A stretch of 64,000 bases of DNA, from positions 4,092,001 to 4,156,000 of the forward strand of contig JASSKH010000009.1 of the NCBI GenBank assembly GCA_031763025.1. Direction: 5' to 3'. Made by a program: the position numbers and the translations under genes. How positions within the stretch are numbered: position 1 is the first letter of the stretch; each line of letters opens with the position of its first letter. Positions 8,068 through 59,443 of this stretch are shown here, piece by piece. This stretch comes from Macrocystis pyrifera (Eukaryota > Sar > Phaeophyceae > Laminariales > Laminariaceae). The notes under the pieces were generated by a model, which saw only the letters and a program-made list of their open reading frames with translations, was not told the DNA's origin and ran no database searches.

Positions 8068-8349
8068 ATGGCCATCTCTGCGTCGGAGGTGGACGTAGAA
8101 GAGCAAGACGGCGTCCTAGAGACGACCTCGGCATCATCATCATCATCACCACCATCATCAGCATCGCCATTATTATCTCTCCAGACCTACGCGGCACGGA
8201 GCATAGAGGCTATCGCGGTTCTCCGGGAGAGGGAAGGCCACAGCTACCGGGTGGTGGAGGCCAATGGCCCGTTTGAGCGTTGGGTGGGGACTTTGGGCCG
8301 GTTGGAGAACTTGGACTTCATCGAGTGTCTCGTCAAGACGGAGGGACCA
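8068..8349 (+). CDS. Kinase exon 1 (probable): start codon and first half of a PAS-like domain
   Basis: ATG at 8068 lies in a good context (GATCATGGCC). The frame encodes a Ser-rich N terminus and then a PAS-like segment (REGHSYRVVEANGPFERWVG, LENLDFIECLV). The frame meets a TAG at 8353. No canonical donor with the phase required by exon 2 precedes it: candidates are CTC/GTCAAG (8332, phase 0) and CAG/GCTAGG (GC donor, phase 1). Joining after ...GPG would continue best into FKIAIAKVREG of exon 2, but that boundary is not canonical. The end given is approximate. Confidence 0.55.

Positions 8350-59443: not shown

Follow-up and report, generated by a model that had tools for sequence, protein, structure and literature searches.

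A predicted, intact-looking hybrid histidine kinase gene with long, repeat-filled introns

Introduction

The closest described counterparts of the gene reported here are the eukaryotic hybrid histidine kinases, in which a PAS sensor, a DHp domain, an ATPase domain (HATPase_c) and a receiver (REC) follow each other; the domain order and the receiver residues are common to these kinases and to this gene. The usual H-box carries an arginine or lysine after HEI, and the usual N-box has a first asparagine ahead of its second; these forms are also seen in the eight bacterial kinases used below. Hybrid histidine kinases of the same type are described for Phaeovirus, giant viruses of brown algae, in the available extract of the source (PMC12993054). 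Compared with the eukaryotic hybrid kinases, the gene analyzed here shows a divergent H-box, an N-terminal region without known fold and a long intron-filled structure. To our knowledge, the Phaeovirus kinase genes are free of introns.

The receiver has its best PDB match in yeast SLN1 (1.9e-19, among the best 60 of 112 matches). For the PAS domain, the best 25 of 111 records show similarity to cyanobacterial and rhizobial kinases, the highest identity in this set, 44.7% over query residues 1-113, being that to the Chondrocystis plasmid kinase BAZ47316.1. This kinase differs in being encoded by an uninterrupted bacterial gene and in carrying, as judged by eye, further PAS and CBS-like parts. 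In genome contigs the related kinase matches were two weak ones to a Spirochaeta MAG (27% and 22% identity), and in viral contigs no related kinase was found with six exact peptide patterns, which are a weak test.

As yardsticks for gene and intron length, excerpts of published brown algal genome reports give a mean intron of 1,057 bp and a mean gene of 9,587 bp for Saccharina japonica (PMC4421812), a mean intron of 1,203 bp for another assembly of this species (PMC6507550) and a mean intron of 740 bp for Ectocarpus (PMC6418280).

Results

Gene model and coding evidence

The window, i.e., the whole stretch of 64,000 bases that was analyzed, contains on its plus strand what the sequence indicates to be a real and intact-looking hybrid histidine kinase gene with a span of at least 33.7 kb. 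The locus is very probably explained by a single plus-strand gene with spliceosomal introns, covering at least 25,709-59,443, that encodes a hybrid histidine kinase and whose introns were filled by repeats. The gene model consists of 15 plus-strand exons running from 25,709 to 59,443, where a TAG stop (59,441-59,443) closes the series. The exons amount to 1,794 bases in 33,735, without internal stop or frameshift. The intervals between them begin with GT in 13 of 14 cases and with GC in the remaining one, and all 14 end with AG. The reading phase fits at 13 of the 14 junctions, the single misfit being the junction between exons L and M. As phase was among the guides in choosing the ends of exons B, G, I and J, this count is not wholly independent.

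The model started from a six-frame motif scan, in which a receiver, a G1-box and other kinase-like fragments appeared on the plus strand; exon ends with splice signals were then read around these motif fragments. A search for a first exon gave no convincing candidate. A profile was built from eight bacterial kinases, hand-picked from 25 listed rows of a tblastn search on plasmid records with a partial joined product as query. One of the eight ends before its receiver, and two other proteins were left out for failing the H-box filter. The profile was searched against 2,533 stop-to-stop segments of at least 14 residues in six frames. The six best matches (E 2.7e-13 to 0.0044), at 42.1, 43.6, 45.5, 56.6, 58.3 and 59.3 kb, all lie on the plus strand in N-to-C order; the seventh match has an E of 0.86 and the best minus-strand match an E of 16. 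In 20 first-order Markov resamplings of the window, searched on both strands, no profile match fell below E 0.01. Three further matches, at 37,846 (E 44), 49,914 (E 17) and 34,890 (E 78), fall where the profile would place them and are not significant on their own, and the exons proposed near them draw on their place in the series, splice signals, phase and joined alignments.

Codon usage supplies a further line of evidence. Leave-one-out codon scores were positive in all 14 exons tested, ranging from 0.2 (exon I) to 16.7. Among the best 26 plus-strand rows of a codon scan, 14 of the 15 exons are present with scores of 12.0 to 38.3, exon D being absent; these rows also hold low-complexity rows as well as 43,792-44,064 and 25,416-25,475. 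In the leave-one-out scoring, exon A, which lay outside its training set, is the best candidate exon in 8,300-28,560 and 49,974-56,600. Candidates at 39,181, 27,849 and 24,703 were dropped because they lacked phase fit or homology.

The original prediction of a hybrid histidine kinase gene made up mostly of intron, with its exons on one strand in domain order, an end at 59,443, a smallest exon of 57 bp and no placed exon disrupted, was borne out. Its nineteen exons of 57-360 bp, proposed without an exon table, reduce to the 15 placed here (57-164 bp) and one candidate, with at least one linker exon and the start missing and no 360-bp exon among those placed. Matching phases were confirmed except at L-M. 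The proposed intron share of more than 95 percent is narrowly undercut over the secure span of 25,709-59,443, which is 94.7% non-coding, and is reached (95.9%) only when the candidate at 8,068 is counted in.

Exons, domains and signature residues

Exon A (25,709-25,872), at 164 bp the largest placed exon, encodes an N-terminal region of no known fold and without a Pfam match; its phase fits exon B. It opens at an acceptor, so that some exon must lie upstream and the gene must start further upstream of 25,709. The PAS domain is distributed over exons B (28,503-28,620, its start), C (29,459-29,546), D (30,244-30,308) and E (31,234-31,351, its end). The joined stretch matches PAS_9 in Pfam with 44.6 bits against a cut-off of 27 (1.9e-11), which places a sensor at the N-terminal side of the product, and exons C and D are further backed by phase. 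The acceptor of exon B might alternatively lie at 28,482 or 28,402, a choice that affects the length and not the frame. Exon E is followed by the single GC donor (31,352-31,357, AAG/gcaagc).

The DHp domain is divergent. Exon F (34,851-34,979) encodes helix 1 with the H-box FHEILTP, in which the phospho-acceptor histidine is kept and leucine stands at the position usually taken by arginine or lysine; the eight bacterial kinases read HEIR. HisKA (PF00512) reaches 13.4 bits against a cut-off of 26.9 (E 0.08, profile positions 4-66 of 66), and it gave no match at E 1 or better on longer joined products or on a loop-shortened copy. Helix 2 is assigned to exon G (36,781-36,921) by frame reading, phase and alignment to PDB entry 8u4x, the nearest structure to the region from helix 2 to the F-box (whole-sequence E 8e-12). 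The donor of exon G, CAG/gtgccc, is weak, as are those of exons B and J.

The ATPase domain starts in exon H (37,837-37,931), which is placed by phase, the 8u4x alignment and its weak profile match, and continues with profile matches in exon I (42,102-42,242, N-box LLLKNSVKFT, the lowest codon score), exon J (43,577-43,739, G1 box DTGPGI and F-box) and exon K (45,445-45,531, G2 box GGIGLGL, also with phase fit), before it ends in exon L (49,917-49,973, 57 bp), itself a weak profile match. Both ends of exon J are uncertain in length, not in frame, as its acceptor may sit upstream in the same frame and its donor at 43,739 or 43,808. Right after exon J, the plus-strand stretch 43,792-44,064 is coding-like in another frame (score 16.6); it may belong to an insert that separates the F-box from the G2 box, or be due to low-complexity chance. 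The joined product matches HATPase_c (PF02518) with 62.6 bits against 26.4 (5.9e-17), and the N, G1, F and G2 boxes are all readable. The first asparagine of the N-box is replaced by leucine; the second and the G boxes are present.

The receiver begins in exon M (56,592-56,728, VVDDS), which opens at an acceptor, continues in exon N (58,235-58,372), where LVLMDLRMP holds the phospho-acceptor aspartate, and ends in exon O (59,291-59,443) with AISA, QKP and the stop. All three exons match the profile, and the joined receiver matches Response_reg (PF00072) with 83.2 bits against 30.2 (1.9e-23). In the alignment to SLN1 the acidic pair, the phospho-acceptor aspartate and the lysine are present, and serine takes the place of threonine. 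When exon L is joined directly to exon M, the NCBIfam ArcB model aligns over residues 131-519 (1.6e-33) as the fourth among the best 25 of 133 families; this match indicates the type of protein and not its identity, as its 115.9 bits compare with a family cut-off of 838.

With these data, the expectation that Pfam would recognize the joined product holds for PAS_9, HATPase_c and Response_reg; HisKA stays below its cut-off. Likewise, the view that all signature residues are kept applies to the core catalytic and phosphoryl-transfer residues, but not to the arginine or lysine of the H-box nor to the first asparagine of the N-box, both of which are leucine.

Introns and repeats

Repeats were defined by self-comparison of the window (matches of at least 50 bases at E 1e-6, without self-matches and with low-complexity filtering) and cover 20,661 of the 64,000 bases. 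They spare all 15 exons; when the exon set was shifted circularly 5,000 times, 10 of the shifts did equally well. The length of the gene would come from repeats that filled its introns and left the exons intact. Two retroelement copies with reverse transcriptase (RVT_1) lie on the minus strand at 1,086-4,361 and 11,595-16,579 and are 75-86% alike in four matched blocks. Ten copies of a short interspersed element are also present; the element measures about 220 bp and frequently has a C-rich 3' tail, and three of the copies gave only partial alignments. Its plus-strand copies lie before 46 kb (28,130-28,410, 32,510-32,785, 33,960-34,245 and 45,120-45,425) and its minus-strand copies after 47 kb (47,860-48,160, 48,560-48,860, 50,030-50,330, 53,585-53,885, 60,050-60,350 and 63,710-64,000). 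Neither the short element, searched with an exact 24-base pattern, nor the retroelement was found among viral contigs.

At 45,413-45,445, just ahead of exon K, one short-element copy has its C-rich tail ending 31 bases from the acceptor of this exon, so that repeat sequence may serve as the pyrimidine tract. By a rough estimate only, short repeats do not adjoin exon edges beyond chance. Three-base repeat arrays of up to about 122 units occur at 463-688, 18,354-18,724, 38,210-38,446 and 56,059-56,147. The G+C content is 38-62% in 2-kb windows, mostly near 50%, and the DNA looks eukaryotic. ARAGORN found no tRNA in the window and no Rfam family reached its gathering score; a six-frame Pfam search of 4,001-8,400 and 59,501-64,000 gave nothing above cut-off.

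The 14 intervals have a mean of 2,282 bp. The middle two measure 1,506 and 1,705 bp, and another exon probably lies in the largest. This mean is about twice that of Saccharina. If the DNA is that of a brown alga, a guess suggested by its richness in introns, its G+C content and its types of repeats, the introns are long but ordinary in kind; published genomes of such algae normally have long introns rich in repeats. The label of an extreme expansion came from comparison with bacteria and fungi, which is the wrong yardstick; going by the same excerpted genome reports, long introns are normal in repeat-rich algal genomes.

Discussion

Where the gene begins

The extent of 51 kb originally proposed is not secured, as the candidate exon at 8,068 comes without homology and without a traced join to 25,709. 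The reading behind it extends the single-gene explanation to 8,068-59,443, with a first intron, or several introns, across about 17 kb that hold a long opposite-strand retroelement, and we give it somewhat less than an even chance. It accommodates the acceptor at the start of exon A, which calls for an upstream exon. The candidate first exon (8,068-8,355, plus strand) runs from an ATG at 8,068 to an in-frame TAG at 8,353-8,355 and has coding-like codon use, 8,179-8,343 scoring 15.3, within the range of the placed exons; by eye only, this part also resembles the first half of a PAS domain (VVEANGPFERWVG). However, the open reading frame has no Pfam match and a single PDB match at chance level (E 0.057), it shows no strong donor before its stop, the only good donor lying past it, and Pfam on the plus strand over 18,521-28,482 gave nothing above cut-off. 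Repeat cover points the same way. It amounts to 42.8% in 8,356-25,708 against 18.9% in 25,709-59,443, with 67.8% before 8,068 and 30.5% after 59,443, so that 8,356-25,708 more closely resembles intergenic DNA. For Ectocarpus, the accessible portion of the report (PMC12477816) puts the share of transposable elements at 52.9% between genes and 20.1% within introns, a measure that differs from the repeat measure used here, and the evidence only leans toward an intergenic nature of this stretch.

The stronger proposition, that the locus encodes a functional eukaryotic hybrid kinase whose H-box departs from the standard (leucine for arginine or lysine) in a transcription unit of 51 kb, among the longest of its family, is unlikely as a whole.

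One gene or two

Between exons L and M, the plus-strand interval 49,974-56,591 is the largest of the series (6,618 bp) and coincides with the sole phase misfit, between 49,973 and 56,592. If L and M belong to one gene, at least one linker exon must be missing here; no candidate could be singled out in this interval. Moreover, reading exon L beyond its donor leads to a stop after four codons, so that exon L could be a last exon. Two neighboring genes could account for this, the first a PAS-DHp-ATPase kinase that ends just past exon L, the second a receiver gene of its own that starts at about 56,592. We consider this very unlikely: the donor of exon L is good (4.7), and exon M, which starts at an acceptor, lacks a start codon, so that a separate receiver gene would need an extra first exon. 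In addition, a C-terminal receiver is found in most eukaryotic kinases of this kind, as stated in the extract of a published survey (PMC6944256).

That the gene is decaying or already silent, its exons surviving by chance, would be in line with the weak donors of exons B, G and J, the departures of H-box and N-box from consensus and the one junction without phase fit, but it is highly improbable given 1,794 exon bases without stop or frameshift, a receiver and most ATPase core residues that are kept, and exons free of repeats.

Proposed function and meaning

The single-gene explanation predicts a protein with an N-terminal region, a bacterial-type PAS sensor, a divergent DHp domain, HATPase_c and a C-terminal receiver. 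If the gene is transcribed, spliced and active as its anatomy and domain homology suggest, a cue at the PAS domain would, by analogy to the family, change the ATP-driven phosphorylation of the DHp histidine. The phosphoryl group would pass from this histidine to the receiver aspartate and then probably to an HPt protein encoded elsewhere as partner.

The gene is an ordinary type of protein with long introns of an already known kind. Among the matches listed, no literature title describes an algal hybrid kinase swollen by introns. As a summary, the locus is a clean case of a signaling gene that stayed intact as repeats filled its introns. It also holds a warning for annotation: genes of this kind may be broken up by gene prediction programs, and a Pfam search would leave the DHp domain unrecognized. 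If the 51-kb reading were true, the time needed for transcription and the splicing of repeat-filled introns could limit the timing of sensor production. Finally, the divergent H-box poses a small, testable question on the chemistry of the kinase.
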